NCBI RefSeq assembly: GCF_965363235.1
Contig: NC_134845.1
Span: 29,266,524 to 29,330,523, forward strand
Origin: Mytilus galloprovincialis
Taxonomy: Eukaryota; Mollusca; Bivalvia; Mytilida; Mytilidae
Direction: 5' to 3'
DNA: 64,000 nucleotides
Shown here: positions 33,001 to 61,868 of the stretch, piece after piece
Layout: each line of letters starts with the position of its first letter
Numbering within the stretch: the first letter of the stretch is position 1
Notes under the pieces: generated by a model
What the model was told of the DNA's origin: nothing
The model's input: the letters and a program-made list of their open reading frames with translations, nothing else
Database searches by the model: none
Program-made: the position numbers and the translations under genes

Positions 33001-36000
33001 GTATATTTTAACAAAACGCATTTGACTAACAAGTCGAACAACTCATGTTATTCCATATTGGTATTATTTTAGTAGGTTTCTTTATATGAATTGGATTTTG
33101 AATAAAAAAGCATATTCACCTGAGAAAGTGTTATTCACCGCGCTAAACGTCACGCGCTTTTACATGCATGCAACGTTATGGTAAAATGTTTCATGTAAAA
33201 AAAATTGGTATATGTTTGTCATTAAATACATTTTCTTCTCTCGGAATATGGAATAAAACAATTACTGTCTTTTGTTTCGGTAAATATGGGGTTTTATTGA
33301 CTTTTGAAAAACTGATATTCACTTCGGCCGTCGGCCTCAGTGAATATCATTTTTCAAAAGTCAATAAAACCGCATATTTACCTCATCAAAAGACAGTAAT
33401 TGTATATTATTATACCTTACATATATTTTAAACAATTCTATTGGGTGAAACGTTATCACGTGACATGGAATAATTCAGTTGTTTTTCATTCAATTGCAAG
33501 GAAGGACGAATAACCCTAAAAATTTGCACCAGCGGTGAATAACCCTATTATTCACCGGTGAATAACCTTTTCAGTTTGTTGATTTGTACTTGAGTTACCT
33601 CCCATGAAAATGACGTCACAGACGTAAATAAACAAAATGGCAGCGTTCACGTTACACTGGAAGCCCACCGAGAGAAATGGAAATAAGGCAGTGGTCATGA
33701 AAAGAGTGCCAGCAGCCGTGTCTCTTATAAACGGTCCTTTTCAGGGCCATCAATATTTTACAAAAAGATTCTACCTTTGTTGTACATTCGAGAAATTCTA
33801 GAACACAAAGCCGTTAAAGGTATTTTCAGCTTGTGTGTTTGTGTTGACTGTTGTGTAAAGTCCAAAGAAGTGTTCGAAAGGCCTTTCCAATGTTAGTTCG
33901 GTATAATAAAACAATTGTGGTCCCTTAGAGTCGATGAATATCCAAAATTGTCAACCCTTAAAAGTTATTTCACTTCGGGCTGCGCCCTCAATGAAATAAC
34001 CTTCTCATGTTGACAATTTTGGATATTCACCTCTTCAACGGGCCATAATTGTATATTATTAAACCCTGCTTACTACCGTTTACGATTGCCAAAAAAAATT
34101 GACCACAAGATGTAATAAAATGGATCTTAATATTAATTTAACACCAAACAGAAAACAATAAACTTGTGGCAAAGATGTTAAACCACAAACATGAGGTGCA
34201 AACATAAGTACACCATATCCGGATTTCGACAATTAATATATAACTTCAGTGACGTTATGGATTACAATTGTATTTGGAAGGCCATATAATTTACCTCAAT
34301 TTTTATACATGTACGTGTGCATGTAAAACAAATGTCTTGGTAGAGGGGTCTAAATACAGCAAAAACAACATTTTCCAAAAGACCAAAAAAAGTGAAAAAG
34401 TATATTTTAACAAAACGCATTTGACTAGCAGGTCGAACAACTGGTGTTCTTAAACCCTGCTTACTACCATTTACGATTGCGAAATAAATTGATCACAAGA
34501 TGTAACAAAATGGATCTTTATATCAATTTAATACCAAACAGGAAACAATAAACTTGTAGCAAAGATGTTATACCACAAACATGAGGTGCAAACATAGTAC
34601 ACCATATCCGGATTTCGACAATTAATTACATTATGTCTCTTCCGTGACGCGAGGAATCAATACGGTATTTAGAAAGCCATGTGATTTACCTCAATCTAAG
34701 ATAGACTTTTGAATATATAAGAGTCGAGAAAGGATGAACGGATTATATAATCCGGAGGGAAAATATAAAACAAGCCCAAACGAAATAAATATAGACAAGT
34801 CTAACTTGAAAACAACGTTCAAACCTATGATATATAAGTCTGAAAATTACACCCAACAGTGTAAGAACTAGATTTTCTGCTGACAAATATTGGTCCGTTC
34901 CTCAGCGAGATTCGAACTCACGCCTTTGAAACACTACATCACTAATCGCTTAGCCTCATGTCCAGCGCTCTCTCACTATCTATATATATATATATATATA
35001 TATATCCGCTAGATTAAAACTGACGTGGAAAGGTAACACACGGCCAGCGAAAGCTCTTTTTATAAGAGCCCAGGTGGTCGTGTGGTCTAGCGGGACGGCT
35101 GCAGTGCAGGCGATTTGGTGTCACGATATCACAGTAGCATGGGTTCGAATCCCGGCGAGGGAAGAACCAAAAATTTGCGAAAGCAAATTTACAGATCTAA
35201 CATTGTTGGGTTGATGTTTAGACGAGTTGTATATATATATATATATTGCAGGCGAAAAGTTACAGTGTTTATTATGGTAAATGTTCGATTCGATAGAAGA
35301 CTTAGCGCCATATCCAGGGAAAGTTAACTGTGTGCCATGTGAGTTTGATTTTAATCAAATTAGAATACAGATCCTCTTCCCAGCTTTTCCTTGCAAGAAT
35401 CTGAAAACACTGATCTGTGAATCATTTCATTGGCCCTTGAAATTTCAGTATTTAATTTTTTGAAGATGTGTATTAATCCGACAAAACTAGTCTAAGAGTA
35501 TCTCAAAGCATCTTTAAATCAGGAAATAAAACCGAGCATTTTCATATCCTTGTAAGCAAAGCTTCAACACAGGATATGTATGACAGTTAGATTGGTTCAG
35601 TTTTTAGCTGCATTTTACAACCATCTTATAAATACAAATAGATAAAAATAAATTGCGAAATTGTCAATACATAAATTTAACTGTTCATTTAAGAAGACAA
35701 AAATGAAAGCAAATTAAAAATCTAGACTGCAAAGATTTGCAGAAGATACTTGCACACAGAATCGAAATATGTTTATCGTCCCACTTAGTGTTAAAATCAG
35801 AATTGTCTTAAAACATTCTCAGGAGAATGCTAATACAGTATATATAACTCGTTAAAGTAGATTAAGGAAATTATTTTTGTTATTCCAGCTGATGCTAAAC
35901 TGGTGCTTTCTACCTATTATGGTTTTGGTGATAATAAGTACGAGATTGATATTTATGAATTTATGGTAGATGGTAAGAAAATGCAAATGAGTTTCAATAA

Positions 36001-36737
36001 AGGAACATGTATTCCTGTTGGAGAACATCAGCAATTGGCCAATGGCTTTGCCGATATTAGCTTCATGGGGATCACAGAAGGAATAAAAGACCCAAAAGTG
36101 TTTGATATCCCACCGGAGTGCAATAGAGCGAGATCAGTTTCTCCGGTAAGTAAAAAGATTCTGCATGTACATCATGCATGTCAGAAGATGTGGTATGTGT
36201 GACAATGAGATAACTCTCTCATCCAAGTCACAATTTGTAAAAGAAAATCCTTATAGGTCAAAGTTCCGTCTTTAACACGGAACTTGGCTCTCACCGAACA
36301 GTAAGATATACAGTGCCAAAAATTGCATGTGTTAAACCATTCAAACAGGAAAACCAACGATCTACTCTATAAAAAATGAGAGACGAGAAACCCTTATAAA
36401 CCACATCAACAACAGACAACTGCTGAACATCAGATGTATGACTTAAAGGCGAAAGACGTGATTTGATCTTGTACTAATATACTTATATAAGTGAGATTGC
36501 AATTGAATCGGGATACTAATATTGGGCATAGCACTGAGATCGAAGTTCATTTCAATTATGATTGTTGGTAATGTTCACACACATGAGCAACTGAACCAAC
36601 CAGAGAAATGTGTTTATTTCTATTCATTATTACACTCAGTACCTCATTTTTTGGGATATTATGATTTTCTATTTATGTTTTAAAATATTTCGTTATTTCA
36701 GAGAATGCAGTATATTGAAAAGATTGGACATTTTTAA
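30087..36737 (+). CDS. ependymin-related secreted protein, four exons
   Basis: Exons: 30087-30230, about 32326-32439, 35889-36145 and 36702-36737, roughly 183 residues. Residues 1-21 are a signal peptide (LTITVFAVFVQLAYS) and the mature protein begins CCGPAQWEG, close to the CxxPxQWEG start of ependymin-related proteins. The middle has an LLYDY stretch. The C-terminal part has a C-I-P cysteine and IKDPKVFDIPPEC, matching the family's last conserved block. Ependymins are small secreted, hydrophobic-ligand and calcium-binding glycoproteins; molluscs have many. Donors GTAAGT follow exons 1, 2 and 3. Oddity: exon 2 ends in phase 0 at its strong donor, while exon 3 needs phase 1 to read DAKLVLSTYYGF. 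A weaker donor at 32444, a micro-exon or a sequence error would explain this. Introns hold an inverted-repeat element, tandem repeats, SINEs and palindromes. Family call firm; exact exon 2 end uncertain. Confidence 0.82.
30283..30882. mobile_element. family D inverted-repeat element in intron 1
   Basis: Left end AAAGGAGTAGGTTCAGTAAG and right end (reverse complement) AAAGGAGTAGGTCCGGTAAG are terminal inverted repeats that extend further. Flanks TAAAGT and AAAAGT may be a target duplication. The interior has a second inverted repeat around GTGGCCGCATTCGTGTTCAT. The copy at 14.0-14.6 kb lacks these outer ends. Non-autonomous. Confidence 0.7.
30965..32070. mobile_element. element with six ~165-bp tandem units, intron 1
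   Basis: One end has CTACTTGGCCCTTCCAAGTG and CACTTGGCGTCCGTCGTCG; the other ends GGTGAGCGACACATGCCC...CCTCTAGTTTAT. Between them are about six imperfect ~165-bp units (starts near 31075, 31250, 31414, 31580, 31741, 31908). Each has ACCACTGAATGGAATG, CATGAATGTTCC and usually a GATGGCCACCAG motif. The same ends surround different bodies at 38.45 and 50.73 kb. Confidence 0.75.
32450..32660 (+). repeat. family G copy, intron 2
   Basis: GGGCGAATGATACCCGTGGG, AAACTGATAACGTCATGGCT and AAAGACAAACAAG match the family G order. Frames reading from exon 2 into this copy are intron read-through. Confidence 0.55.
33258..33403. repeat. palindrome P1 with TTCG-N9-CTCA core
   Basis: The arms run from ACAATT to AATTGT, 146 bp in all, and pair at most positions. 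The central 17-mer (33323-33339) is TTCG GCCGTCGGC CTCA, itself a 3-bp GCC/GGC stem around GTC. The flanks TTCAC and GTGAA extend the stem. Just outside is AATAAAACAATT on the left and AATTGTATATTATTA on the right, shared with P2. No coding content. Confidence 0.85.
33911..34052. repeat. palindrome P2 with TTCG-N9-CTCA core
   Basis: The arms run from ACAATT to AATTGT (142 bp). The central 17-mer (33975-33991) is TTCG GGCTGCGCC CTCA, with a 3-bp GGC/GCC stem around TGC. The outer boundaries match P1, but the arm sequences are largely different, although they still pair. Both right arms keep an unpaired ACCTCATCAA or ACCTCTTCAA at the same place. Confidence 0.85.
34700..34985 (-). mobile_element. 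tRNA-derived SINE, intron 2
   Basis: On the minus strand the head has an A-box-like AGGCTAAGCGA and a B box AGTTCGAATC. The body carries ACACTGTTGGGTGTAATTTT, similar to the core of the SINE at 35.07 kb. It abuts a TA dinucleotide run (34979-35004). Confidence 0.65.
35065..35250 (+). mobile_element. tRNA-derived SINE, intron 2
   Basis: A box TGGTCTAGCGG and B box GGTTCGAATCC are both consensus. The body contains GCGAAAGCAAATTTACAG, CATTGTTGGGTTGATGTTTA and a TA-repeat tail. This is a molluscan SINE layout. It is not a functional tRNA gene because the acceptor stem and spacing do not fit. Its tail ends within intron 2. Confidence 0.8.
36178..36375 (-). repeat. family A copy, intron 3
   Basis: AGAAGATGTGGTATGTGTGA, AACTTGGCTCTCACCGAACA and CCATTCAAACAGGAAAACC follow in the reversed family order. 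The short frame continuing past exon 3 is read-through into this region. Confidence 0.65.
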
Positions 36738-37244
36738 GGTGAAAAAAACTAAAGAAATAACTTCAGTTACTTCAAAGATATATTGGTAGTGTGATGTTAT
36801 AAATATAATTTTGTTATTAAAACCTTAGAAATACCGACTAATGGCTACTAGGCCGATAAAGAGAATGAACGAGTTTAACAAGTTACCTAAAACAACAAGA
36901 ATAGTGAAGTGTTTGTTACTTTAGTTGGATGAGTTCCTACTACCTTCTAGTCCATATAGAAATCATTCACTTCGTAATATATATACATATACTACGCACT
37001 CATTGACAAGTACTAGTACTTGTATATCGGAAAAAATGTAAACGCAAAAAAGTAGAACCCAACATCAAACTGCTATAAGGTTTCTACATGATTGCTAGAA
37101 ATTCTTACAATAAATTAAAGAGAAACCAAAAGCTTAGTATAATTTTAAGAGGACAAAAGGTCTTGAACGTTGTAGTATTTCAAAAACCAATCCAAAGAAA
37201 TTTTGGTTAACCTTAAAGCAAAATAAAAACAAACACATCAAAGT

Positions 37245-37388
37245 ATGAGCGGACAACGAAATGTCCTTGTTCGTATGAACCCAGCCGAGCTATCTGATGC
37301 AGTGTTAGATCTTTTAAATAACACTTATTTTGATGGTGTAAATATAGACTTACTAGATACATTCATTTCGGAAGACGAAACTATTTAG
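37245..37388 (+). CDS. short open frame of 47 residues, unknown
   Basis: ATG at 37245 opens a frame encoding MSGQRNVLVRMN... rich in acidic and leucine residues (SDAVLDLLNN, DLLDTFISEDETI), ending TAG at 37386-37388. I do not recognise it. Its composition is more protein-like than the surrounding DNA, but it sits between LINE pieces and could be a fragment of a mobile element or a captured exon. Confidence 0.2.
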   Translation: MSGQRNVLVRMNPAELSDAVLDLLNNTYFDGVNIDLLDTFISEDETI

Positions 37389-37399
37389 ACACTAAAGAG

Positions 37400-37873
37400 T
37401 CTTCAGGATGTATTCTTCTGACTTTTCAGTCTCGTTCAGTCTCCTTGAAATCTCGTTCTTGAAATATTTCCAAAACATGTGATAGAAATAGATAGTTAAA
37501 TTTTACACAAAAAAGCGTCAAAATATGATAAAACTTTCTTATATTAACACCTAAATGTACCTATAGTTTTTGTAAGTAAAATCTATTCAGATTGGTCCAA
37601 TTCATCTTTATAGAAAGTATGAGAAAAAGTTTAATTGTGGAACTGTCATTTTTATCATGATAATAGCCCAAAAATAGGTAAAAATCGATGAAAAATGGGA
37701 AAATCATCAAAATTGGCGTTTTAAAAGGGCCGTAGCAAAAAAAAAAGTGCACCACCATATGATTTTTTCTTCACCAATTATTTTGTTACAGTCTTTATAA
37801 ACCCAAAAATCAGGTTAAGAAAAAAAGTTTAATTCTAGAAATTTTTGGCTCCTCAGAAGTGTACATCCTTAAA
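37400..37873. mobile_element. ~475-bp MITE between LINE pieces
   Basis: Left TTCAGGATGTATTCTTCTGA and right (reverse complement) TTTAAGGATGTACACTTCTG are imperfect terminal inverted repeats. The interior is AT-rich with no protein coding. Position suggests it inserted into or next to the LINE. Confidence 0.5.
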
Positions 37874-38454
37874 TGCGGACAATTGCAGGTAACGATGAGC
37901 TTGTAGGTGAGGTGTTTACTTGTCCTTTATTTGTCGCACATATTTTAGAAACTTTGTTCAACTCGATACTTGTTATCGGAATATATCCAGAAAGTTGTAC
38001 TGAATGTTTAGTTATTCCTGTTCCTAAAAGGGGAGATATTACGAGTCCAATTAATTATACACCTATAATATTAGTAAGCATCCTTTCGAAGTTGTTCACT
38101 AGTATTCTAACTGACCGTTTGTTATCGTGGTCTCAGGACGAAATCATATAATAGACAACACATTTGGATTCCAGCCAGGACGTTCGACTGATGACGCTAT
38201 ATTTACTCTACATGGAATTATTTAACATACTCTTCAGCATAAATGAAAATTATACTGGCTTCGTAGACTTCCAAAGGGCGTTTGATAAAATGGACAGAAG
38301 AATTTTGATTTACAAGCAGATCTGTAGTTAGCAGTAAATTCCATTTATTCATCTGTGTGTTTACGTGTGCGATCTGGTAGAGTACTTTCAGAGTCTTTTG
38401 ATAACCATCTTGGTGTAAAACGAGGAGAGCCCTTATCTTCTTTACTTTATAATG

Positions 38455-39025
38455 TTTAGCACAACTGGCCCAAAGGCCCAAGTGAACTATTTTCATCACT
38501 TGGCGTCCATCGGTCGTCGTCGTTAAATTTTTACATTTTAAACTTCTTATAAACCACTGAATGGAATGGAACCAAACATGGCATGAATATTCCTTATGAG
38601 GTTCTGACAAAGTGTTGTTACTTTGTAGCCGATCCATCATCTGAGATGGCCACCAGCGAGGGACTTAGTTAAAACATCGGACCCTATAGGAAATACATGC
38701 AAATGTTTTCTTTTAAAGAACCACCGAATGGAATGAAGCAAAACATAGCCCCAATGTTCCTTATGAGTTGTTACTATGTAGCCGATCAATCATTCAAGAT
38801 GGCCGCCAACGGGGGAATTAGTTTGAAAAAGGACCCTAAGGGAAATAAATACAAATGTCTCTATTTAGATAACCACTGAATGACACCGTACATGGGATGA
38901 ATGTTCCTTAAGAGATGCTTACCAAGTGTTGTTATTTTGTAGCCAATCCATTATCAAAGATTGCCGCCAGTGGGGGACTTAGTCTAACATAAGACTCTAT
39001 TGGAAACACATACAAATAATCGAAG
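38455..39025. mobile_element. element with three ~160-bp tandem units
   Basis: It starts with ACTGGCCCAAAGGCCCAAGT and CACTTGGCGTCCATCGGTCG, the same end as the element at 30.97 kb, and has about three units (near 38553, 38721, 38872). It interrupts the LINE. The CTCTAGTTTAT end is not found, so the copy is truncated. Confidence 0.7.
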
Positions 39026-39099
39026 TAAACGTTGATTAAACCAAAGTAGTGTTCATAATCAAAAACGTGTAGCACATGTCAACAAGGATTTAGAGCTAC

Positions 39100-39720
39100 A
39101 ATGCAGATCACTTCTAACCTCTCATTAGAACTGTCAGAATAATCTGTCATAGAACTGTTCTAAACTGTTCTAGAACGGTTCTACCCTAGAACTGTTCTAG
39201 GTAAAACTGTCAGGATCAGTTCTAGTCGTAAAACTGACCAAATCAGTTCTTTTCTTAGACTTGTCAACCAAACTGAATAAATGAATAAATCAGTTCTAAC
39301 CGAAGAAATGTCAGCAGAACTGTCTCAAATTTTCTAGTCGTAGAACTGATTAAACCTGTCAGGATTGTAGAACAGTTCTAAATGACGTCGCTATAGTTTG
39401 GGCATGTTAAACAGTGGTGCGATGAGAATCGGTTAATATATATTGTAATCTTTTGACTTATTTAAATTTAAGACAAAGGGTTCTTAAAACTGTTCTATGA
39501 ATAGAACTAACTAAATTAATTCTAACAGTAGAACTGAACAATTCAGTTCTAACAGTAGAACTGAACAATTCAGTTCTAACAGTAGAACTGAACAATTCAG
39601 TTCTAATCGTAGAACTGTTGTAGTCGTAGAACTGTATAAACTGTAAAACTGTTCTAGGGTAGAACTGTCTAAATTAGTTCTAGGCAGAACTGACCAAGTC
39701 AGTTCCAGGTAATAACTGTC
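39100..39720. repeat. array of CAGTTCTA/TAGAACTG hairpin motifs
   Basis: Dozens of AGAACTG and CAGTTCT motifs in alternating orientation. Positions 39520-39600 are three perfect 27-bp units (TTCTAACAGTAGAACTGAAC plus AATTCAG), each able to fold as CAGTTCTA-ACAG-TAGAACTG. The flanks hold degenerate versions. Frames across it are artefacts of the repeat. Confidence 0.85.
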
Positions 39721-39729
39721 TACACGTAC

Positions 39730-41940
39730 ATGTGAACGATTTATAAAAAAATGTTTATGTGCAAAATTCAATTGAAAACTTTTCTCTGAATGAAAATGTT
39801 GAATCTGAACAAGAGCAGACAGTTGATAATGATAACTTTTTAGCCAAAATATTCATAGAGATATTGCTAAAGAGAAATGTTATCTTTGGTAAGACTAGAT
39901 AAGTTCATAAACTAGTATTAGAGAATTCGAGGCGTTGAAAAACAACAAAAACAATCCGCTTAAATAGAGGATTACAAAACCCTTTTTTCAATAAATGATA
40001 GTTCCGTTGGTTTCAAAATTAATCGATTTACTTTTAACTCATATACCTGTTAAAACAGACACATAATAAAATGGCTGTAAAGCATAAAGATTGTCACAGT
40101 CAACTTGATTCACAAGATTTCAAAAAGATAGAAAAAATGGGGTTCCAGAGGAAATTAAGTACAAGAATGAATGTTTTTTTTTTTTTGTATTTATGTACAT
40201 TCAACTTGCTCTAGCTACACTATAACAAACTTTTGAGAGTGATGGTTTTGGCAAAGATGAAGTTTGTCAAATCATGAGAAGATGTTTTAGCCATTTCGAC
40301 TAAAAGACTGACCAAGCAGCCGTATATGTGCCTTCTTTTATTTGGTACGTCGAAAAGTTGCAGGCTTACAAAAAAATGTAACAGGGGTTGACGATAATGT
40401 GCAGTACATGCCAATATCTATCTTTTAAAAAAGACAAGGGTATTTGGCAATGAGCTTGTAATAGCTTTTGAAAAACACAAAGAGCAAAATGAACATCTCT
40501 CTGATCTTTTACCAAAACTAAGTAGGACGAGAACATTCGAAAATAACTATCGTCAAAAGGAGAACAATATGGTACCCATATAGTCTAGTGCACCATCTTG
40601 TGAAATCATTCTGTGTGATTAGGAAAAGGTCTACATCCGACTAGAAATGTGTTATTTCAGGTCAGCAAATTGGTAAATATTGGATAACCGTAAATATATT
40701 TGAATAAGTAAAATGTATATTGTTGTTTCCATATGCATATTGAAATACAAACACATTGAAATGTTTCAATATATACGCTTTTATTTTGAGTTATCTTTCT
40801 TTGAGTAACTTAACAAAAGTATACAAGATATAAATATGCCATTCCCTGTGCTCATTTGTATAAATACATTTAAATGCCAAATACACGTAATATGGCGGAA
40901 TGAACAAGTTTACTATATGGGATAGCTCCCGAAAAAATGCAAGTAAATGTGTTTAAAAGTGTTTGACTTAATATTATTGTTACTGATGGTAAACTTAAAT
41001 GAACTATTAAACGATTGATTTGTTTTTGATAGTCGAAAAGGGAAAATTGCGAATAAATAGGAAAAATATGAAATCCGGTTTGACTAGTACTCAACCTTAC
41101 AAAACAGCTTCCAAGATGGCGACGAATAATTTAAACAATATGAACATATCTTAGGTTTTGACATAAGCCCATAAATGGATCCTAAACTGTCCGTATAAAC
41201 ACAATCAGAAATTTACATGTAGTCCTAATTAGATAAATCAACTTCAACATAATGGTGCTTGCACAGTTCTGCAGGGCTCCCCTAACCAGTTTAACATCCT
41301 GTAAGTTATCAGCAATCAGCACCTGTTAATGTGCAATTTATACCTCCCTTATGATGACGTAAGCGAATGCGCGAAAGGAAACATCTACCTTGAAGGGCTC
41401 TGAGACAAATTTTATCAAAAACAGATTTGTAAGTGTAGCCATGCAAACCGCAAAACTCATCAGATCTTACATATTTATCAATTAATATATGCATTCATTT
41501 ACAAATTTCAACGATGTCCTTTTAAACGTCAAAACACAGTGGGTTGGTTGTCAGGTAATCGTAAACACCTATATATGTTTATCAGTCTTTAAAATTATGA
41601 ATTGAACTCTCAACATTCCTATCCACTTATGAACAGCTACGTCTTCAAACAAAACTCCAACTCCAGTTGGTGCGCATGCCTAAAAGAAACAGACGTGTTA
41701 TGAAGCTCCGATAAAAAATGTGACCTCTTCCATATGTGACTAACATGTTTTAGTACCTTTAGATCAGTGTGTGTATGGTACGGACATCAACTATATAATA
41801 TGAATCACATTGAACTTAAAACTACGATATTTGAACATTTATAATGTTTCAATAGTACAATTCGAGTGCACCTTTCAAAAGTAAACAAACAAACATTCTG
41901 TTTCGTACCTAGCAGTGAATAAGCATATCTAGGACTTGCT
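39730..41940. other. spacer without recognisable features
   Basis: No gene or repeat supported. Some short frames exist on the minus strand near 41.3-41.5 and 40.9-41.1 kb, without domain similarity that I can see. Confidence 0.4.
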
Positions 41941-42429
41941 TTGAAAAAAGTAAAATCACAAAAATACTGAACTCAGAGGAAAATCAATTCGGAAAGTCAA
42001 TAATAACATGGCAAAATCAAATAACAAAACGCATCAAAAACGAATGGACAAGAACTGTCATATTCCTGACTTGGTACAGGCATTTTCAAATGTAGAAAAT
42101 GGTGGATTGAACCTGGTTTTATAGCTAGCTAAACCTCTCACTTGTATGACAGTCGCATCAAATTCCATTATATTGTCACCGATGCGTGAACAAAACAAAC
42201 AGACACAATAGGTAAAAATGTAAAAAATAGGGATACAGCAGTCAACATTGTGTTATCATCTTAATCAATATAAAAACAACAAATATAACGAAGAAGCACA
42301 AAAAGGCATACATCAAATTAACATCCTCATTTTGATTATATTATATGGTTTTATTTGTCTATGTAAAATGCACCCATCAAGGAAGGAGGGTTTTGAGTAC
42401 TGATGTAAAATTGCGCGTTTGAAATTCGC

Positions 42430-42830
42430 ACGGGTAGACATGAAATAATTTTGTCATTCAAAGTATGACGGGATGCATAAATACAGTCACGCAAAATAGA
42501 TATAACAAAAACTGACTTAACAGTTAAAGTAATAATAATAAATATAATAATAGTGTGGTTCAAAGTATGACGGGATACATAAGTACAGAGTCACGTCAAA
42601 TGTATATCACAAAAAAGTGGGTTAACAGTAAAAAAAGTAATATTAATAAATAAAATAATTTTGTCATTCAAAGTATGACAAGATACATAGGTACAAAGTC
42701 ACATCATAAAATAATTTTGTCGTTCAAAGTATGATGGGATACATAATCACAGAGATACGTCAATAGGATATCTCAAAAAACAAACAGACTTAACAGTAAA
42801 AGTAATATTAATAAAGACAAATAAAAATAT
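42430..42830 (-). repeat. tandem ~100-bp repeats in the Penelope-like 3' UTR
   Basis: About four imperfect units built on TTCAAAGTATGACGGGATAC, ACAGAGTCACGTCAAAT and CTTAACAGTAAAAGTAATAT. The unit nearest the RT stop spans the end of the ORF. Confidence 0.75.
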
Positions 42831-48420: not shown

Positions 48421-48766
48421 AAAACAAAGAGTCAACTTTAACTCTGGCTTACAAATGATGTCTTGAAAATCTAAGAAACAACCATCTCAAAAATGAAATA
48501 GTGCAGCATTTGTAAGCTAGGGGGCAGCACTAGTCAGTCAAATAAGTACTGTGAATACGTGAAAACAGTCATGTGTGACCAGAACTGACTTATGAAGGCC
48601 TCAAAAAAACATAAGTGACCAGAAGTTATGTTCAGCTTTTCCTCGAGATGGTGGGTAGGATATTTTTACTTTTGAATCAGTTCATGATACTTTCATCAGA
48701 TATACGCAGTACTCAAAATCCAGTACATGAATTCCGACTCACATACATATGAAGTAGAAATACCAC

Positions 48767-49215
48767 TTAGAATGAAATTCAAAACAGTGTGGCTGTGGCC
48801 ATTGATTGACACATTAAATTCATCCATTGACTGGGACAATTTACATGAACGTTTGTCTGTAACGACCACTGTTCACGACGTACCTACGATAGACATTTAA
48901 ACTGGTGGGTTACCAAAGGTTTCTTAACGCCTTTAATTATAAAATAATTCGAAAAAATAATCAGGAATAACCTTTATGTTTTGATTTATATAATTGATAT
49001 AAATCAAAACATCGTGTTATTTCTGATTAATTTTTCGAATTACTTTATTAAGGTGTTGAGAACCTTTGGTGACACCATAGTTTAAGTGTCTTTAAAAAGT
49101 ACATAGTGAGCAGTGGTCGTTACATACAAACATTCACCTAAATTGTCCCAGTCAATGGATGAATTTAATGTGTCAATCAATGGCCACAGCCACACTGTTT
49201 TGAATTTCATTCTAA
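48767..49215. repeat. giant palindrome, ~449 bp
   Basis: The whole segment is an inverted duplication centred near 48994 (TTATAT-AATTG-ATATAA). The outer ends are TTAGAATGAAATTCAAAACA and its complement. Arms of about 215-220 bp pair at most positions with a few small indels. A second copy lies at 52374-52806. No coding content; a foldback or snapback element. Confidence 0.9.
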
Positions 49216-49264
49216 CTGAGTGCCGAACTATTGAACTGTCGGACCATCGAACTGTCGGACTATT

Positions 49265-50300: not shown

Positions 50301-50429
50301 CACTATATGTAATGCTAAAATTGAAAAAAATTGTTTTCGACTTCTCGCCAATTAAATAGATTGAAACTGATTTTCATAGTTCGTTCTTATGTTGTTATCC
50401 CGCTAACATGTTTCATCCCGCCACATTAT

Positions 50430-50720: not shown

Positions 50721-50724
50721 ATAA

Positions 50725-52190: not shown

Positions 52191-52214
52191 AAAGATGAAT
52201 ATACTGGGTTAAAA

Positions 52215-52330
52215 TTTAATCACGATGGGGCGAAGGATACCAGAGGGATTTTAAACCCATAGATCGATATTAAACTGACAACGCCATGGCTAAAAACAAA
52301 AAGACAAACAGATAAATAATATTACACTAT
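52215..52330 (+). repeat. family G copy
   Basis: GGGGCGAAGGATACCAGAGG, AAACTGACAACGCCATGGCT and AAAAGACAAACAGATAAATA in family order. Confidence 0.6.
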
Positions 52331-52373
52331 ATACAGCATAGAAAAACAACTTATAAAACAATTATTATCAGAG

Positions 52374-52806
52374 TAGAATCATATTCAAAACAGTGTAGCT
52401 GTGGCCATTGATTGACAACCTTAAATTATCCCACTGACTGGGGCAGATTAGGTGAACGACAACTGCTCACTACCTACTTATTATAGAATTTAAACTGTGG
52501 GGTCACCAAAGGTTCTTAACGCCTTTAATATTAAAATAATTCGAAAAATTAATCAGGAATAACTTTATGTTTTGATTTATATTATTGATATAAATCAAAA
52601 CATCGTGTTATTCCTGATTAGTTTTTCTAATTTCTTTATTTAGGTGTTGAGAACCTTTTGTGACCCCACAGTTTAAGTGCCTTTAACAAGTACATTGTGA
52701 GCAGCGGTTGTTACAGACAAACGTTCACATAATCTACCCCAGTCAATGGGATAATTTGAGGTCGTCAATCAATGGCCACAGCTACACTGTTTTGAATATG
52801 ATTCTA
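52374..52806. repeat. giant palindrome, second copy, ~433 bp
   Basis: Second copy of the element at 48767-49215, bounded by TAGAATCATATTCAAAACAG and its complement and centred on TTATATTATTGATATAA. The three bases inside the outer end differ from the other copy (ATC-ATA against ATG-AAA), and the change is mirrored on both arms. Confidence 0.9.
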
Positions 52807-52819
52807 TATAGTTTTAAAA

Positions 52820-53530
52820 TGTGTATATTTACCCCATCAGCAAACATGGCATAAATGGCTAAAAAACATAGGGATACCAAGCGAGTTTTGAGTCAAAACT
52901 TTCAGATGACTTCTTATAGTAGTTAATGCGTTGTCCTTAAATGACAATTTTATCACATTTTCATTAATTTTTCCTCAAAACTATAATAATACATAAAAAT
53001 GATCTTTATTTGGGTAAATAATCAGCATACAAGATCTACAAATAAGTCAACATAGCTGAAATCCTCAGAAGACTTTATTGAATTTTTTGCTCTTTAAGAA
53101 CGATTTTATTAATCTTTTTTGGAAATTATTTTTTTTTAAACACTGTAATAGATCAACAATATAAGATCTACAAACAAGTCATCATGGCTGAAATCTTCAA
53201 TAGATATGTGATAAGAGATGTTGTCCTTTTTTTTTTATATTACCCCATTACCTTAGAATTGAGAATGGAAATGGGGAATGTGCCAAGAGACAACAACCCG
53301 ACCATAGAGCAGACAACAGCAGAAGGTCACCAACAGGTCTTCAATGCAACGAGAAATTCCCGTTTTTGGCACAACTTTTTGGAAATTTGGCTCCTCAATA
53401 CTCTTTAACTTTGTACTTGTTTGGCTTTTAACTGTTTTAATCTGAGCGTCACTGATGAGTCTTATTGTAGACTAAACGCGCGTCTGGCTTATTAAATTAT
53501 AATCCTGGTACCTTTGATAACTATCTTAAA
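52820..53530. repeat. fragments of three repeat families
   Basis: 52990-53200 holds two related blocks with AAGATCTACAAATAAGTCAA and AAGATCTACAAACAAGTCAT, similar to the end part of the 50.7-kb element. 53253-53370 is a family C start (GACAACAACCCGACCATAGA). 53375-53530 is a family E end (ACTAAACGCGCGTCTGGCTT). Confidence 0.55.
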
Positions 53531-53811
53531 AAGTATTATAATTACAAATAGGTTGACAATTTTTAAAGCACCAAATGATCAGCTGTAAAATTACAATATG
53601 TCAACACGATTGAAACTGTCTGTAACTATTCATAGAGTTATCGCCCTTTTGTAAAAAAAATTCTCTCAAAAAGTGGCAACTGGTGAAGATGAATGTGAGC
53701 AACACAGGCTCTTAATAGCTTTTTTTTACCAGGGCTCGTATTTGATATCATATACATTTGTATAAAGTTACAAATGTCTCTTTTCTTATAACACTTTTTT
53801 TTGTTCTTATA

Positions 53812-53817
53812 TTTATT
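53812..53817 (-). terminator. candidate polyadenylation signal
   Basis: AATAAA on the minus strand about 140 nt after the stop codon of the mucin-like gene. Position and match to the consensus make it the best candidate. Confidence 0.5.
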
Positions 53818-53958
53818 CATTCATGCATTTCAATTATTAAATAAACGTTTAATTATTTGATTCACAATCCAAGACCATATCCATGATATTAAAGACATAA
53901 ATTTTGAAGGTATCAGATTCTATTCCTACGTACATTCTTCCACTGATTCCGAATAACA

Positions 53959-56102
53959 CTATACTTTCAGAAATCTTTCATCGTCAGCAAAATATATAGG
54001 ATTGTCCACACTTTTGTCAAGTTCTTCTGTTGTAGAACATAGTTTTTCTTCTGACTGATCCCCGTTTATATCAGAATTGTCATATGACTGTTCGTGACAT
54101 TGGGTAGTATTTCCGGTTCCTGTTACGCCAACAACTATTCCATCCTCATTCGAATTCACCCTTAACTGAATGTCGTTCACTGAAGTTTCCTGTTCTTCAA
54201 TAGGAAGCAATGCCGCTCGCGGACTATCCTTATGATCCATCAATTTCATTCTGACACCGTTCTCCGAGTAAGAACTATTTGTGCGCGGTATTTTTGTAAG
54301 AGTGTAATCATACGAATTTGATCCATTTGACATGAAGGATGACAATGTAAAAGATCGTGACCTTTTCTTAAGATAATATTCCCGCGCACAAATTATCATT
54401 CCGGCACATACAAGAATAACTGAGATGGCTGTAGCGCAGATTATCACAATAATATCAACTTCGTTTAATCCCATTAGGAAAATTTCTGAACCAATTTCAT
54501 GATTTGTATATAGATATATTCTGATAGCTTTGAAATTCAATCTATAATTATCAACGAGGACTGTTATGACAAAGTTGTTATTTTTTATCATAGTCTGAAT
54601 AATTTCTGTTAAGTTTTTATGTGTTGTGTTATATACATTGAATGACAGACGCAAAGGACCACATAATATATTTATCGGTTCCACACTCAATCCTTTTGTG
54701 CCTGCCTGAAAGGCAACGATGTTCATCAGACTGCCCCAAATTTCCTTCAATGCCTCTTGGTTTTCTAACGATTTGCATTCACCGGTAAACTCGATTTCAA
54801 AACTGAAATTGTATAAATTCCTCTTGTGTGAGTTTGGTTTTACAGTTACTTGAACTCTATCGTTTAGAGAATATGTCATTTGATGATATTTAGTCGACAT
54901 AGAAGGTTGAATAGTAGTGTCTCCAAGTGAATAAGTGGAAGATACATGCGACACATTTAACAAATTGGATATATTTGATCCAAAAAGAGATTTACTTGCA
55001 GCACTCAGGGATGTTTTGCTTGTTGGAACGTTTGTTATGACTGATGTTGAAAACATATTTATTGCGGCAACGGATGACGAAGACACTAAACGTGGATGAC
55101 TTACAGAATTTAAAAGTGAGGAAACAGTAGCTTGTGTACTTTGGAGAGTCACGTCGCCTGAAGATGCAGATACAATAGGAAAGAGAGTTGAAGTAAAATC
55201 ACTATGTTGTGTTAAATTCTGAGTTTTCAGATTTATTGATGTCGATGGCACAGCCTGTGTAGCTTTCGAAGATGACAGATTTATCTTTGTGTTAACTTCT
55301 GTTTCTAAATGTGAAATCCCAGGAGTAGATCCTATCATATTTGTGAAATCTCTAACCTCACCATTGACTAATGAGCTGATTGGTTCAGTTGACGACTTTG
55401 ATAGTTGATCAATAATCATGCCAAACGGCCGCGTCGTTATTTCTGGTTGGAATGACGTTTGTAACACATGCGCCCGTGTCGTAGTTTGTAACACGTGTTC
55501 CCGTGTCGTTGTTCTTAACACATGTGCTCGAGTCGTTGTTCTTAACACATGCGCCCGTGTCGTCGTCTGTAAAACATGTGCCCGTGTCGAAGTTTGTAAC
55601 ACACGTCCTTGTGTCGTCTCTGTGTGTATTTCAGACGAAATGTTCGGCGTGTTATAAACAGATACATTTTGTACTAGTAAACTTTCTGTAGATAAAAATG
55701 TCGATTTTGTCACTGAAGGGCTATGATTGACAGTGGAAATTTTTGAAACCGATACATTGTTTAATTGAATAACTGGCGATGTTAATATGAGGGAGGATAC
55801 CTGTGAAGAAGGATCTACTGAATCAGTTAATGCGTGTGGTCTGTTACTTTTCGTTGTTGCGTTGAGTTCCCCATCGGTATTAAAAATGGTTATTGTAGAT
55901 GACGCAAGTGGCATTTTTAGAACTGATCTCGTTGATTTTAGCTCATCAAAGTGCGTCTGAAGCTCGATGTTTGAAGTAGAAAATGTGTGTGGTAACATTG
56001 AACGAGTTGTTGTTGGCACAACATTGTCAATTGTTCGTTTTGTTCTTATACTCGAGGATTCAAATTGCGTATTGTCAGTTGATAGTTGTCCTCTTGTTAT
56101 AC
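53959..56102 (-). CDS. mucin-like type I membrane protein, last exon
   Basis: The minus-strand frame encodes about 714 residues in this exon. It opens at a splice acceptor (CTTTCGTCAG, exon start 56102, phase 1), so upstream exons with the signal peptide lie beyond it. Counting from codon 56019: residues 1-385 are Ser/Thr-rich with many N-glycosylation sites and a 9-residue tandem repeat (TTTRAHVLR) at 139-187. Residues 387-505 form a folded juxtamembrane domain (NFSFEIEFTGECKS...ILCGPLRLSFNVYN) that recalls SEA-like domains, not proven. Residues 521-544 are the membrane helix, followed by a basic KKRSRS stop-transfer. The ~140-residue cytoplasmic tail ends near DNPIY (672-676), an NPxY motif of the kind bound by PTB domains and used in endocytosis. 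A mucin-like surface receptor or adhesion protein is the best description. I do not recognise an ortholog. Frame intact. Confidence 0.85.
55450..55607 (-). repeat. 27-bp coding minisatellite in the mucin-like gene
   Basis: Five to six 27-bp units encode variants of RAHVLQTTT. Units differ mostly by Q/R and A/E changes. Threonine-rich repeats of this type are O-glycosylation scaffolds in mucins and usually vary in number between individuals. Open frames on the plus strand across this stretch are antisense shadows. Confidence 0.85.
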
Positions 56103-56119
56103 CTGACGAAAGATAAACA

Positions 56120-57460
56120 ATAAGTTTACTTCATTAGAAAGTCAAGTACTTAGTTTAAGATATAGGAAAATAAAAACAAACATGTCTTAATGTAAGGTCT
56201 TAATGTAAATAAGTGATTCTTTGGAAGTTTTTTTATTAGTGGTTGACGTTTGTTGATGTGGTTCGTAAGTGTTTTTCATTTCTCGTTTTTTTTATATAGC
56301 TTGGACCGTTGGTTTTCCTGTTTGAATAGTTTTACACTAGTCATTTTAAGCCCTTTAAAGCTTGCAGTTCGGTGTAAGCCAATGCTCCGTGTTAAAGGCC
56401 TGTGACTTGGGTGGAGAGTTGTTTCATTGGCACTTTTATCACATATTCTCATATCTAAATATGATTATTCCGAAGATTTCCTTTAAGAATGTGATCACTA
56501 TAGATCTTACATACATATTGGCTAGATAAAAACGATAACTTACAAAAAAATAAAGTATGACTGATAATTATATCAACAGTCAACATTACTAATGTTTGAC
56601 TTCACGCTCATAAAACTCCAATTTTTGTTTATAGAAACAGTGTCGAAAGTGTATGAACAAATCTGTAAGAAAGAAATTTGACCTTTAAGTGATGGCGTTG
56701 GTTGATTTTAAACTGTAATACCTTATATTAAATTATCTGCATCAACTCATAGAAACTCCTCTGTGACATTTGAATCGTATTAGAGTATATAATGAATAGC
56801 ATAACTACTGTAGCTTCACAATTCAATTAAATAACGGCGCCATTTCTAAGTAATTGAAATGTTACTGAACAACAACGCTTTTCTGTAAAGTAAATGTCAC
56901 GCTAGAGATTCATTTAAACCTGTATATCAAATCTTTTTCTCAGTAGACATATGTCCCGAGTCGATCGACTTTCAATCTCCTAAAAGCATCAAATCCTTAA
57001 AAAAAGATCGTAACGAAATTGCAATCGATTTTGTATTAACTTTATTCCTACATTCTTGAGCAAGCAATATCGAGAAAGATTTATTGAAAAACAAGAAACA
57101 CATCCAACGCATATAACATCTGATAAGCTGCGAAAGCCACATATTAGAGACAAATGTGTTCTCTTGACATTGTGTTTAATATTATATGCATTGCCTAATT
57201 AAGGAATTACGACTACAAATCCCTCATGACACCAGTAAAAGTTATCTTGTTCCGCAAAAACACGATTTAGACGAAGGAATTTATTGACAAGTGATTCGTT
57301 ATACAGGAGTTCTCGTTTATTCGTATTTGATGTATTTTATATGCGTTTATAATTAACAGGCTACATATGTGCAGCAAGAGCAATACCCTATACAGTCATT
57401 TTAGTATAGTTTAGTTACGTTTTTCATTAATGAAATAAATGTGTACGGAATCATAAACCA
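56120..57460. other. intron or upstream region of the mucin-like gene
   Basis: On the minus strand this should be intron sequence preceding the last exon. 56220-56460 carries a plus-strand family A copy (GGTTTTCCTGTTTGAATAGT, GGAGAGTTGTTTCATTGGCA). No upstream coding exon could be recognised with confidence. Confidence 0.45.
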
Positions 57461-58504
57461 TCTATCTCCACGGTAGGCATAGTGTCCGGCTAGGATCGTG
57501 GTTTTTCGAGTGATTTGATCGGGCTTTTTCGAGTGTGACCACTTTTTTTCGAGTGAATATGATCAAAAATGTAAACAAACAGACTTCTTTTCTAATAAGA
57601 CGTGATATAGAAGCTTCAGTTTGATAAACAAGGTTGTACATGATGTGTTAGCATTTGAGATATAAAGATAGTATCATTCTGACATCACTTTTCGTTTAAA
57701 ACGTTAAATTTAGCTTTAAAATGCTTTTATTCCAAAGTACCGAATAAAGCCATTTTCTTACACATATCAATGCAAATGTCGACGGAAATGCATACATGGA
57801 TTCTATGTATCCTTAGATATACAAACACTTTACAAAAATTATTGTTATTGCATTGAAAACGACATTTTGAGAGCAAATTCAGTTTTTCATGTCCGGGTTT
57901 TTTCGAGAGCAGTCCGGGCTTTTTCGAGTGTGTCCTTTTTTTAATCGAGTGATTATACTCATTTCTTATGGCTACAAATCTTATGTGTTTACGTTTAAAA
58001 ACTATAAAATAAAGGCTCAAATTAAGTACTTTCAAGGCACATGGTGTATCAACACTTGCATTTTATCATGAAACCAGTATCGTTCATTTGTATATATATT
58101 CTTTTTCCCAATCTTATAAATTGCATGTGCAGTATATATCCGGGATGTCAACAATCTAATGTGAGTGTTCCGGACCATATAAGTATTTGGACCTCATGGG
58201 ATGACTATTACTGAACAGCAAAATGTCGACTCGGAAGATAACTTCTAAAAATGTCTTAATGAACTATTAAACAAGAGTTCAACTGTTTTACCAACTGACA
58301 AAAAAAAATCGATATGATAAAGAGTCTAATAATTGATACTAGAGACGGACAGAAAACAGATACACCCAACTTAGACAATTAATTGAAAGACAATGGGTTT
58401 CAACTTGTAACTTGTGATGTTTTGGGTAGCCTTTGAACTTTAAAATTAATACATTTCATGTAACCATCATTGTTATAGATAAGTTCATTGTTTTATTGAA
58501 TCGT

Positions 58505-59020
58505 TTCTAATGTATAAAATTGAGAATGGAAATGGTGAATGTGTCACAGAGACAACAACCCGACCATAGACCAGACAACAGCAGAAGGTCACCAACAGGT
58601 CTTCAATGCAGCGAGAAATTCCAGCACCCGGAGGCGTCCTTCAGCTGGCCCCTAAACAAATATATGTACTAACAAAGGCCAGAGGCTCCTGACTTGGAAA
58701 AGGCGCAAAAATGCGGTGGGGTTAAACATGTTTATGAGATTTCACCCCCTATACCCCTAGCCAAAGTAGAAAAGTAAAAGCATAACAATACGCACATTAA
58801 AATTCAGTTCAAGAGAAGTCCGAGTCTGATGTCAGAAGATGTAACCAAAGAAAATTAACAAAATGACAATAATACATAGATAACAACAGACTACTAGCAG
58901 TCAACTAACATGCCAGCTCCAGACTTCAATTAAACTGATTGAAAGATTATGTCTTCATCGTGTGAATATCAGGCAAAATTCTTCCCGTTAGGGGTTTAGT
59001 ATCATACCATCATAACATAT
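58505..59020 (+). repeat. family C copy, most complete
   Basis: GACAACAACCCGACCATAGA, AGCACCCGGAGGCGTCCTTC, CCAGAGGCTCCTGACTTGG, AGAAGTCCGAGTCTGATGTC and TTAGGGGTTTAGTATCATAC mark the family from start to end. Confidence 0.7.
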
Positions 59021-59179
59021 ATGAGAAGATATACCTATATGGTTCCAAATTGGGGTTCCCTTTGGGCACTTATTTTTTTGCCACTCTTTCGCCAAAACAA
59101 TATATTTTTCGCCACTTTATTACTTTTTTCGCTAAATAGCATAACTACATCTTTCGTTTAAATTTTTTCTACCCCACCC

Positions 59180-59380
59180 CATCCCTAAACCGTTGGTTTT
59201 CCCGTTTGAATTGTTTTGAACTAGATTAAGGGGCCCTTCATAGCTTGTCGTACGGTTGGAGCCAAGGCCCCGCGTTGAAGGCCGTACCTTGGCCTATAAT
59301 GGTTTACCTTTATAAATTGTTATTTTGAGGGAGAGTTGTCTCATCGACACATATACCACATCTTCATATATCTATCATAT
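59180..59380 (+). repeat. family A copy
   Basis: GTTGGTTTTCCCGTTTGAAT, AAGGCCGTACCTTGGCCTAT and GAGAGTTGTCTCATCGACAC in forward order. Confidence 0.7.
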
Positions 59381-59384
59381 GGTC

Positions 59385-59480
59385 CGACCATTCGCGTACA
59401 GTTTGACCATATGAAAATACGCATATGGTCGTGACCATACGCGTATGGTCCTAATACTCATATGGTCCGGAACATAAGCA
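59385..59480. repeat. cluster of CATATGGTC/GACCATATG motifs
   Basis: At least six ATATGGTC-type motifs in alternating orientation lie within 90 bp, interspersed with CGCGTA and ACGCGTATGG. The cluster begins right where the family A copy ends. Confidence 0.6.
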
Positions 59481-60619
59481 TAGACAATTCGAATTGAGAC
59501 GTACATGCATATATTGTATAAGATGAGATGTATGTTCTTAAAAGAGTATACATCTTAAGATACATTTCATGATCTATTTGTCTTGTATCTTGTATTGTTT
59601 ATTTTATTTTTTAAGAAATGGAAACCGAAAATGACTAAATGCTACAACTGTGAGGAGAAGTCTGATTATACAAATATAATAATTGGTATACAGCAACTAA
59701 ACACCATGATAACTCCCTTGTAATAAAAGAAAAGTGTCTAAAAAGTGGAAAATATGAATATTAATCAAGACATTGAAATGTTATTCCTGGTGTCTTTCGA
59801 TGCACTGGACATGATATACACAGTTTGTATTTGTCTATCATTGCTGAAGGATCATATTTAGGCTAATGATCTATTCATTTCATTGTTGATTTTATCTGAA
59901 ATTTTATTCACATTTTATGTTCAATGGCAATAAAAATGGGAGGGATTAAGTGTGTGTGTTTTTTTATGTTTTTTTATTAATAGGTTTCTTTTTTTAGTCT
60001 TCGGAGTTCACCACAAGAAATATTATTAACTGTAAAATCAAAAGTAGCATGGAATGAAGTTAAAATGAATATGAGACCCCTGCATAATGTTCTAGACACC
60101 GTTTTGTTAAGGATCAAGTTATATCTAAATGAACACTGGAAAGGAGTTGTATAACGCTCTCCAAACAGAATATTTGCATTAAATTTTCCTTTTGATATGT
60201 TTTTGATGACTTATTGGGAAAATATGATATTGTCCTTCACTTAATTACAGTTATAAACTAGAAAAAAGTCATTTTTTAAGGCCTAGAATACCTTCAAATT
60301 TTCTGTAAAAAACCCGGACCATTTGTCTAAAAACCCGGACGAAATCACAGTTGCTCTCGAAAAAACCCGGACAATAACAAACACTGATTTATTTAATAAA
60401 TACAAGGAAATTGAGATTCTTTGTTGATCAAAACATATATAGTTTTCAATATAAGATGGGTAGTAATGTTAAAAACTGTTATAATTACGAAATATTCGTT
60501 AATTGAACTTATCGCATGTTTTATCATTCGAAAAAGCCCGAACTACACTCGAAAAAAATGGACCAAATCACTCGAAAAACCACGATCCTAGCCCGACACT
60601 ATACCTACCGTGTATCTCT

Positions 60620-61190
60620 ATCTAATTAAAAGTGAAGCGTTGTTTTACACGCGACAATTTTGATATATTTACAGAAAAACATTTTGAAAATATATCTTTT
60701 ACAAGATCACCAGACTTACAAAGTAAAACTGAGAAAGGACATGGGACATTCATACATGTAGAAGTTCATAGAAATATATATACGACTGAAAAAAATTATA
60801 GCAACGGTCTCATATATATTCAGAAAACCACCAAAAAGTTTACATTCCGTTTTTTTGGTAATATTTTTGGAAACGCAAATGTTTAGATATGGGTTGTATA
60901 ATTATATTAATCATTTAACAAAATATTCACACAATGAGAAAGTCTAGAAAACAACAACGTATATCATAGTTTTAATGCGTTTGAAAGAACAAACTGATAA
61001 GCCATGCTGTTGTTTTGTAGGCATTGAAAATGTATTTTCGCCCTTCTTTCCCGAAGAAGAAATTGTGTCGGTTTTCTTTCTTCAAATTATCTATACATAA
61101 AATGTCTTTCTGGTATTAGTAGTCGGCTGATATTTGTGAATTTCAAAATCTCTCTAAGAAATAAATGTAAAAGACAGTCTAAAGATATTG
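60620..61190. other. spacer without recognisable features
   Basis: An 84-codon frame at 60632-60886 has no recognisable domain and lacks supporting splice or promoter context; not called. Confidence 0.4.
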
Positions 61191-61194
61191 GACA

Positions 61195-61340
61195 TTAAAC
61201 TCTTTTAAAAGTCGAAACTGACAATGACATGGCTAAAACGGAAAATAATAAAAACAAAAACAAAATTAAACAAAACAAAAAAATAGAAAACTTTACGACT
61301 GATCAACACGACCCCAACCAAAAACTGGGGTGTTCTTATG
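61195..61340 (+). repeat. family G copy
   Basis: GTCGAAACTGACAATGACAT, GGCTAAAACGG and GACCCCAACCAAAAACTGGG follow the family order. Confidence 0.55.
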
Positions 61341-61543
61341 AAATTGGGTATATTTTGTGTGACTTATAATTATATTTATCGCTATTTTGTGCATTTTTCC
61401 TTTGATCTTTTTTTGTGATAAATTTCATATGCTACTCGCTTGAGATGGAAAATTATCGCTAGAAACTAAACATGCACGTGGCGTTGCTAACGAAATTGAC
61501 ATGAAATTGACAACGTCGTCATAGGTAAACTAGCGATAAAAAT

Positions 61544-61638
61544 ATTATCATTGTTCATCTCAGCTCGATTGCCTTTCTCGCTTTCGCCGTCCCGGCTCAA
61601 GCGAGAAAATCAATCTCGCTGAGATGATCAACGATAAT
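61544..61638. repeat. palindrome P3 with TTCG-N9-CTCA core
   Basis: Arms ATTATCATTGTTCATCTCAG and its imperfect complement surround the 17-mer TTCG CCGTCCCGG CTCA (61583-61599), a 3-bp CCG/CGG stem around TCC. Architecture as in P1 and P2, sequence of the arms unrelated. Confidence 0.8.
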
Positions 61639-61734
61639 CTATAAATATCATTTATTACATTGGTTGCAATGAATTACATTGATTTCCCAGTTAGATAAAA
61701 ACCGATAATTTCACATGTGAAATAATATCAGATT

Positions 61735-61868
61735 ATTACATGGCATTTTTCATATCGCATGTATTATCAGCCCTAGGTTCAATATCAGCCCAAGAGCCGC
61801 ATGGCTCGAGGGCTGATATTGACCGAGGGCTGATAATACATGCGATATGAAAAATGACATGTTATGAT
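61735..61868. repeat. palindrome P4 with related GC core
   Basis: Arms of about 60 bp (TTTTTCATATCGCATGTATT, AATATCAGCCC and their complements) surround AAGA GCC GCAT GGC TCGA (about 61792-61809). On the minus strand the core reads TCGA-GCC...GGC-TCTT, close to the TTCG...CTCA form. Confidence 0.75.

Follow-up and report, generated by a model that had tools for sequence, protein, structure and literature searches.

A stretch of 64,000 nucleotides of the Mytilus galloprovincialis genome (assembly GCF_965363235.1, contig NC_134845.1, positions 29,266,524 to 29,330,523 of the forward strand; hereafter the window) holds four long palindromes, named P1 to P4, three of which are centred on a 17-base core of the form TTCG-N9-CTCA. 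Positions 33258-61868 had originally been presented as one feature, but this interval takes in portions of two loci separated by about 27 kb, and the elements to which the palindromes belong extend beyond it on both sides, to 33048 and 62504. Each palindrome is the 3' end of a larger non-autonomous mobile element and not a whole element. A snapback transposon family had been put forward, and the palindromes do lie in dispersed repeats, but they do not make up one snapback family with free arms. The elements measure 359 bp (P1), 649 bp (P2), 269 bp (P3) and 779 bp (P4, on the minus strand) and share a common anatomy, namely a 5' end opening with TTAT (TTATTCC in P1, TTATTATACC in P2, TTATCGC in P3 and TTATCAT in P4) and, at the base of the 3' hairpin, the reverse complement of that end, which is 9-12 nt long in the window copies (Table 1).

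Table 1. Coordinates in the window of elements P1 to P4, their parts and the host repeat around P4
Feature	Position	Strand	Details
P1 element, whole	33048..33406	+	5' TTATTCCATATT ... 3' GTAATTGTATA; abuts P2 exactly
P1 inner end repeat	33245..33256	+	AATATGGAATAA; reverse complement of the first 12 bases of P1, at the hairpin base
P1 3' hairpin and tail	33257..33406	+	from sequence and predicted folds
P1 outer TC/TC	33277-33278 with 33383-33384	+	inside a 4x4 loop; predicted fold
P1 core	33323..33339	+	TTCG-GCCGTCGGC-CTCA; pattern search
P1 inner TC/TC	33324-33325 with 33337-33338	+	predicted fold
Predicted P1 end-to-start joint form			TAATTGTATA^TTATTCC
P2 element, whole	33407..34055	+	5' TTATTATACC ... 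3' CCATAATTGTATA; head-to-tail with P1; end at 34055 set by copies
P2 inner end repeat	33900..33909	+	GGTATAATAA; complementary to P2 start
P2 3' hairpin	33910..34055	+	core TTCG-GGCTGCGCC-CTCA at 33974-33990
P3 element, whole	61376..61644	+	5' TTATCGCTATTT ... 3' GATAATCTATAA
P3 inner end repeat	61531..61539	+	TAGCGATAA; complementary to P3 start region; 13-14 nt in most P3 copies
P3 3' hairpin	61540..61644	+	core TTCG-CCGTCCCGG-CTCA at 61583-61599; outer TC/TC loop
P4 element, whole	61726..62504	-	5' TTATCATAT (62504) ... 3' AATAATCTGATA (61726)
P4 inner end repeat	61873..61881	-	complementary to P4 start; predicted by the end rule, then found
P4 core	61792..61809	-	minus strand TCGAGCCATGCGGCTCTT; GC stem, TC opposite TT
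Host repeat left of P4	62505..62521	-	minus strand GAGTGAAATA-ACCACGT^
Host repeat right of P4	61713..61725	-	minus strand TTATTTCACATGT

All three TTCG-N9-CTCA cores were found, each centred in a long palindrome; those of P1 and P3 lie where the original prediction placed them, and that of P2 lies one base to the left of the 33975-33991 given there. The self-complementary GC stem within the core was likewise present, but with a length of 4 bp and not 3, the fourth pair being formed between the G of TTCG and the C of CTCA. The minus-strand core ascribed to P4 is alike in architecture and differs in motif (TC-GAGCC-ATGC-GGCTC-TT). Chance palindromes in AT-rich DNA would be compatible with the frequency of the bare TTCG-N9-CTCA pattern, which is expected 1.3 times per window: the three occurrences stood against a mean of 1.30, a number reached by 14 of 100 shuffles and so not significant. 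When self-complementary 3-bp stems were also demanded, the three cores stood against 1000 dinucleotide shuffles that averaged 0.022 and never held more than 1, and when at least 6 of 8 arm bases had to be paired as well, against none in the 1000, so that the proposed excess over shuffled sequence was borne out. In the genome (1.385 Gb, 331 contigs) the pattern WN8-TTCGSSSNNNSSSCTCA-N8W gave 617 matches, against 11 for the reversed pattern. The shuffles and the genome-wide count refute an origin by chance, the probability of which we regard as practically nil.

The 17-bp core of P1 had 181 exact copies in the genome and its reversed pattern had none. Among the P1 copies fetched, 28 of 30 matched the window over about 360-385 bp with 92-97% identity, and those at loci L035 and L036 matched in part; P3 copies matched over about 275-310 bp and five P2 copies over 656-672 bp (first-pass candidates numbered 3842 for P3 and 866 for P2, of which 40 each were scored). 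Arms had been said to differ between copies, but within the P1 family they are conserved in these 28 copies, and the arms differ among P1 to P4 because the families differ. A plasmid search with P1 gave no match, and a search of the open-access literature, judged by title or abstract start, returned no description of these elements.

Complementarity between the two ends follows a simple rule, in which the first 12 bases of P1, 10 of P2 and 9 of P3 recur in reverse complement at the base of the 3' hairpin. The rule predicted the start of P4, and this start was then located on the minus strand at 62504, within the second of the two host repeats considered below. End statistics were drawn from 64 copies with both ends recognised, 29 of P1, 31 of P3 (the window's own included) and 4 of P2, which came from 30 P1, 30 P3 and 5 P2 loci fetched, some with two copies; copies with altered ends, among them the P2 copy L072, were left out. 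Exact end complementarity of at least 9 nt was observed in 47 of the 64 (16/29 for P1, 27/31 for P3 and 4/4 for P2). An end-rule scan of the sequence examined gave 76 matches from 11 start words, among them, besides P1, P3 and P4, two look-alike elements, L028 (584 bp, core TTCG-GCTACGC-CTCA) and L036 (303 bp), which were kept by eye and selected by the rule, and thus illustrate it and are no test of it. Control words also matched (TATT 38, TTTA 15, ATTT 10 and ATTA 7), many of these being shifted readings of the same elements, which makes the control a weak one. Weaker matches of the scan lie in the window at 35773-40460 and 38345-39349 (plus strand) and at 42709-41253 (minus strand), with predicted energies of -0.27 to -0.33 kcal/mol per base, and further matches were seen in L073, L010 and L017.

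Insertion takes place at ATA-W-N6^NTAY, with ATA and seven variable bases to the left of the element starts and NTAY to the right of the ends. An A at -8 was present in 62 of the 64 copies and TA at +2/+3 in 58 of 64, while base +1 was A in 19/29 P1 and 15/31 P3 copies and T in 4/4 P2 copies. Two host repeats, both palindromic around an 8-nt spacer loop, serve as repeated targets and could be compared in empty and filled form. The empty form of the first, CACTAGTGCAATA-TTAGAATT-TATTGCACGC, had 725 matches, with an 8-nt spacer in 97 of the 100 listed, and was filled by the P1 copies L026 and L037 in opposite orientations; L026 keeps TTAGAAT on the left and TTATTGCACGC on the right, and the spacer at L037 is one base off the usual form. 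The empty form of the second, GAGTGAAATA-ACCACGTT-TATTTCACATGTG, had 547 matches, with an 8-nt spacer in all 100 listed, and was filled by P4 and by the P1 copy L010, as well as by L016 with an altered left joint. In both host repeats insertion was precise, with neither duplication nor loss of the target. P1 targets showed 115 complementary positions against 91.8 expected (0/2000 shuffles), a symmetry that stems partly from the palindromic host repeats.

Some insertions fall at the joints of resident elements. Besides the exact joint of P1 and P2 in the window, abutting copies were found at L016, L029 and L043, against other elements, and at L051, against a matching end, and five P1 core pairs were spaced 357-366 bp apart among the 100 places listed of 181. 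Where members of two different families join at the same base, choice of the target is a better explanation than read-through of a single element. Cut-and-paste movement by a DDE transposase, as in miniature inverted-repeat transposable elements or foldback elements whose palindromes arise by inverted duplication, would suit short, abundant and palindromic elements, and a Pfam scan of two P2 open frames gave a single match, under its cut-off. The absence of target duplication in the two host repeats with empty forms argues against it, as do the asymmetric end repeats, in which 105-151 bp separate the inner copy from the 3' end and no inverted repeats stand at both outer ends, and we consider this explanation very improbable.

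Pairing in the hairpins is kept while their sequence changes, as the original prediction had claimed. Across six core families, three from the window and three typed from the genome-wide pattern listing, both sides had changed in 9 of 11 stem pairs, and the covariation score was 0.80 against 0.19 in shuffled sets (reached by 0/500), which fell to 0.25 or less when the partner was slid by 1-3 columns. The letters TTCG and CTCA set TC opposite TC, which on the other strand is GA opposite GA; in DNA, tandem GA mismatches have special stability when they lie between a pyrimidine and a purine. In predicted folds a clean 2x2 TC/TC loop appears at the inner position of P1 and at the inner and outer positions of P3, and the same letters stand in a 4x4 loop at the P2 core and the outer position of P1. 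A strict test for nested TC/TC found four in the window, one of which, at 52893, lies outside all the elements described, against 1 in 30 shuffles. Five of the seven core families (P2, P3, L028 and families 6 and 8 of the genome-wide listing) carry a TNC tip loop, which reads GNA on the other strand; at L036 the bottom-strand tip reads CTTG, and the predicted fold leaves ten bases there unpaired.

Streptomyces telomere palindromes are described as capped by GCA, GGA, other GNA and CTTG loops with sheared purine pairing (PMC7205883), and GNA-type tip loops in folded DNA are thus common to both, but the Streptomyces palindromes stand at chromosome ends and are not mobile, and the tip motif alone is shared. 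Hairpin RNA genes, for example for miRNA or another structured RNA, kept under pairing selection and spread by an unrelated process, would also leave compensatory stem changes, and the hairpins fold with RNA parameters too. Yet their position is constant within elements whose ends are defined, GNA and CTTG loops have been described for folded DNA (PMC7205883), and the terminal anatomy together with the precise insertions points to DNA mobility rather than to hairpin RNA, which seems extremely improbable. Conservation of the motifs suggests, rather than proves, selection on the folded bottom strand.

We favour, with modest confidence, the reading of P1 to P4 as 3'-terminal hairpins of four related non-autonomous families that probably move as a folded single strand. 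The element would be copied or released as a single strand, and its bottom-strand hairpin would be recognised by shape, this being the presumed active form, in which GA/GA stands in place of TC/TC and most tip loops read GNA. When the ends meet, in a circle or a tandem array, the element start can pair with the hairpin base and extend the hairpin, placing the joint at the edge of an internal loop. An enzyme would then nick at the joint and attach one strand, at N7^N, to a target site that resembles the element's own joint.

In the Helitron2/HINE layout an end repeat lies at or near the 5' terminus, its complement lies just upstream of the 3' hairpin and no target duplication is made (PMC3627910, PMC4067079, PMC7492417). 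P1 to P4 carry the 5' end repeat 0-4 bp from the end and its complement upstream of the 3' hairpin, without target-site duplication in the two host repeats with empty forms, and they share with Helitron2/Helentron elements (HINE, DINE-1, pearl), besides this layout, tandem copies and the lack of coding capacity (PMC3627910, PMC4067079, PMC7492417). Because the end layout and the absence of duplication fit that group, the enzyme would, by analogy, most likely be an HUH RepHel of the Helitron2/Helentron kind. Profile searches of the genome gave 138 matches for RepHel (PF14214) and 144 for tyrosine recombinases (PF00589, best score 51.6 bits). On contigs C1 and C2, which hold 21 recombinase and 17 RepHel matches, none was within 50 kb of the 100 listed core hairpins, the nearest being 54 kb away.

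Several observations weigh against movement as a folded strand served by such an enzyme. The ATA-W-N6^NTAY target is not the TT or T-rich target of Helitron2/Helentron elements, the inner end repeat is 105-151 bp from the 3' end and not about 20-60 bp, and no strong 5' hairpin of the Helitron2 kind is formed in P1 to P3 (the first 45 nt fold with -0.8 kcal/mol in P1, -1.0 in P2, 0.0 in P3 and -2.1 in P4); because the TT target, the short 3' spacing and the Helitron2 5' hairpin are lacking, P1 to P4 were not classed with this group. A further difference is the hairpin with tail of about 100-150 nt in place of a short palindrome, although P1 to P4 may well work as Helitron2/Helentron members do. 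The host origin of the seven bases left of the element was demonstrated for the two host repeats only, and P3 targets showed no palindromy beyond base preference (82 vs 80). The predicted folds show clean 2x2 TC/TC loops in no elements but P1 (inner), P3 and, once, L036. Tips other than TNC occur in P1 (GTC) and family 7 (TGT), P4 has a 4-base loop, and among the 100 places listed of the 617, where 96 have complementary stems, the 87 of 96 with a TNC tip overstate its share, as the W flank excludes P1 with its 181 GTC-loop copies. Folding energies with standard DNA parameters gave no consistent advantage to the bottom strand (bottom minus top, in kcal/mol, +1.9 for P1, -1.9 for P2, -3.9 for P3, -5.1 for P4, +1.6 for L028 and -0.6 for L036), and exact end complementarity fell below 9 nt in 13 of 29 P1 copies. 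A blind test with L097-L100, four loci that represent three additional core families, gave no reliable end rule within about 1.2 kb; long palindromes centred on the core were present in all four, and the one 10-nt end-rule match, in L097, was absent from its sister L098. This may mean that the core hairpin is not confined to such elements, or that the elements of these families are longer. Finally, none of the 5 of 138 RepHel loci (L075-L080) read in part had these ends or this type of hairpin, and none of the 18 of 144 tyrosine-recombinase loci (L073, L074, L081-L096) read in part had these ends, a partial reading that is weak evidence on the partner enzyme. As a separate observation on the blind-test loci, L097 and L098 share only about 105 bp at the hairpin, that is, the palindrome itself, which may be a stand-alone hairpin repeat.

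Cassette-like movement, as in integrons, is another way in which a folded bottom strand could be used; the R box of integrons has the consensus RYYYAAC / GTTRRRY. A tyrosine recombinase would act on inverted arms around an 8-nt spacer and exchange one strand at the spacer edge, and the joint would rebuild a similar site. The P1 target, AATA-N8-TATT, is two-fold symmetric, and a single base separates the joint from its right arm; a symmetric target with an 8-nt spacer suits tyrosine recombinases, at whose sites the arms flank a spacer of 6-8 bp (PMC3212892). One-strand exchange would leave the host spacer to the left of the element and the element tail on the right, which is the arrangement in both host repeats, and tyrosine recombinases are present in the genome. 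The attC site, of which only the bottom strand is used, has a variable tip, an outer stem to which both ends contribute (7 nt, in many cases lengthened to 9-11) and an unpaired spacer where the ends join (PMC2727003). Its R''/R', unpaired central spacer and variable terminal structure (PMC2727003) have parallels in our elements, whose outer stem measures 9-12 nt, whose joint falls at an internal loop and whose long stem ends in a short tip. Structure kept over sequence, an outer stem from the element ends and head-to-tail arrays are features of integron cassettes as well (PMC2727003), the outer stem joining both ends and the unpaired spacer at the joint being found here by analogy only.

Against these likenesses, the starts of P1 to P4 have no R-box consensus and no GTTRRRY box was seen; there is no pattern of single extrahelical bases, the interruptions being mostly symmetric loops. 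The element tail fits the left half of the target in part, since both have A at -8 but differ at -9, where the tail has A and the target T, and P3 targets are not palindromic beyond TA..TA. No integron integrase was seen, and the elements are dispersed in a 1.38-Gb genome. The tyrosine-recombinase family of L073 and L074, tried as a partner, was rejected, as its two near-identical copies are a DIRS-like retrotransposon, and no hairpin of this kind was present in the roughly 0.7 kb that follow another 16 recombinase loci (L081-L096, some belonging to a single family) on their 3' side. Cassette-like movement is accordingly tenable but unlikely. A true eukaryotic counterpart of integron cassettes, with attC-like bottom strands of which a nuclear recombinase inserts one strand into two-arm sites, seems likewise unlikely; if it were real, each joint would rebuild a similar site, so that arrays could grow.

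Two other systems were compared. REP/TnpA-REP and IS200/IS605 also combine non-autonomous palindromes, conserved internal mismatches and single-strand recognition (PMC8266576), but the profile of their Y1 transposase (PF01797) had 0 matches in the genome, while 5 of 14 control genomes matched, and no GTAG box was seen at the hairpin bases. Cryptons likewise lack inverted or long direct repeats, and their non-autonomous copies outnumber the autonomous ones (PMC3212892); in contrast, hairpins go unmentioned in the main text of that source, and no partner was linked to our elements in the parts of 18 of the 144 PF00589 loci.

Structure-guided mobility of single strands is established in bacteria, through integrons, IS200/IS605 and REP, and in eukaryotes via Helitrons. 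On the preferred reading of P1 to P4 as folded-strand elements, stems that change with pairing kept, together with the maintained placement of TC/TC (GA/GA), may reflect selection that acted, within a eukaryotic nucleus, on DNA folded as a single strand. As partner enzyme one would expect a RepHel whose mode of targeting has not been described, or else a recombinase of a new kind, and the mechanism can be tested directly by means of the target rule, the empty sites and the end-pairing rule.

Minor observations were made at the enzyme loci. L073 and L074 are 99.96% identical over 5378 bp on two contigs, which suggests recent activity. At L083, L088, L093 and L095 a block after the recombinase frame recurs in alternating orientation around CATGCCC, probably as DIRS-type complementary regions. 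The RepHel locus L076 is followed by GGGTCCTTGGACCCTCTAG, by eye a Helitron1-type end, which may or may not belong to that gene. Tandem repeats are common to L077 and L080, as is a short CAATTGTTC..GAACAATTG hairpin with oligo-T, and L079 shares almost nothing with L077; a long palindrome with mismatched interior lies near the RepHel at 1650-1805 of L077, outside the part shared with L080, and no long palindrome was found in the RepHel locus L078.

Within P2 of the window, a short ATG open frame of 54 aa, which had no Pfam match, occupies positions 33637-33801. Further repeats of the window include about 24 copies of a 49-bp unit with 93% matches at 21426-22623, and a tandem palindromic array at 39502-39722 with the 27-bp unit TTCTAACAGTAGAACTGAACAATTCAG (97% matches), similar to which are AGAACTGTTCTAG motifs adjoining the hairpin in L097. 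Nested inverted repeats at 48764-49218 and 52374-52806 share the inner motif AAAATAATTCGAAAAA..TAATCAGGAATAAC and are perhaps one palindromic transposon family.

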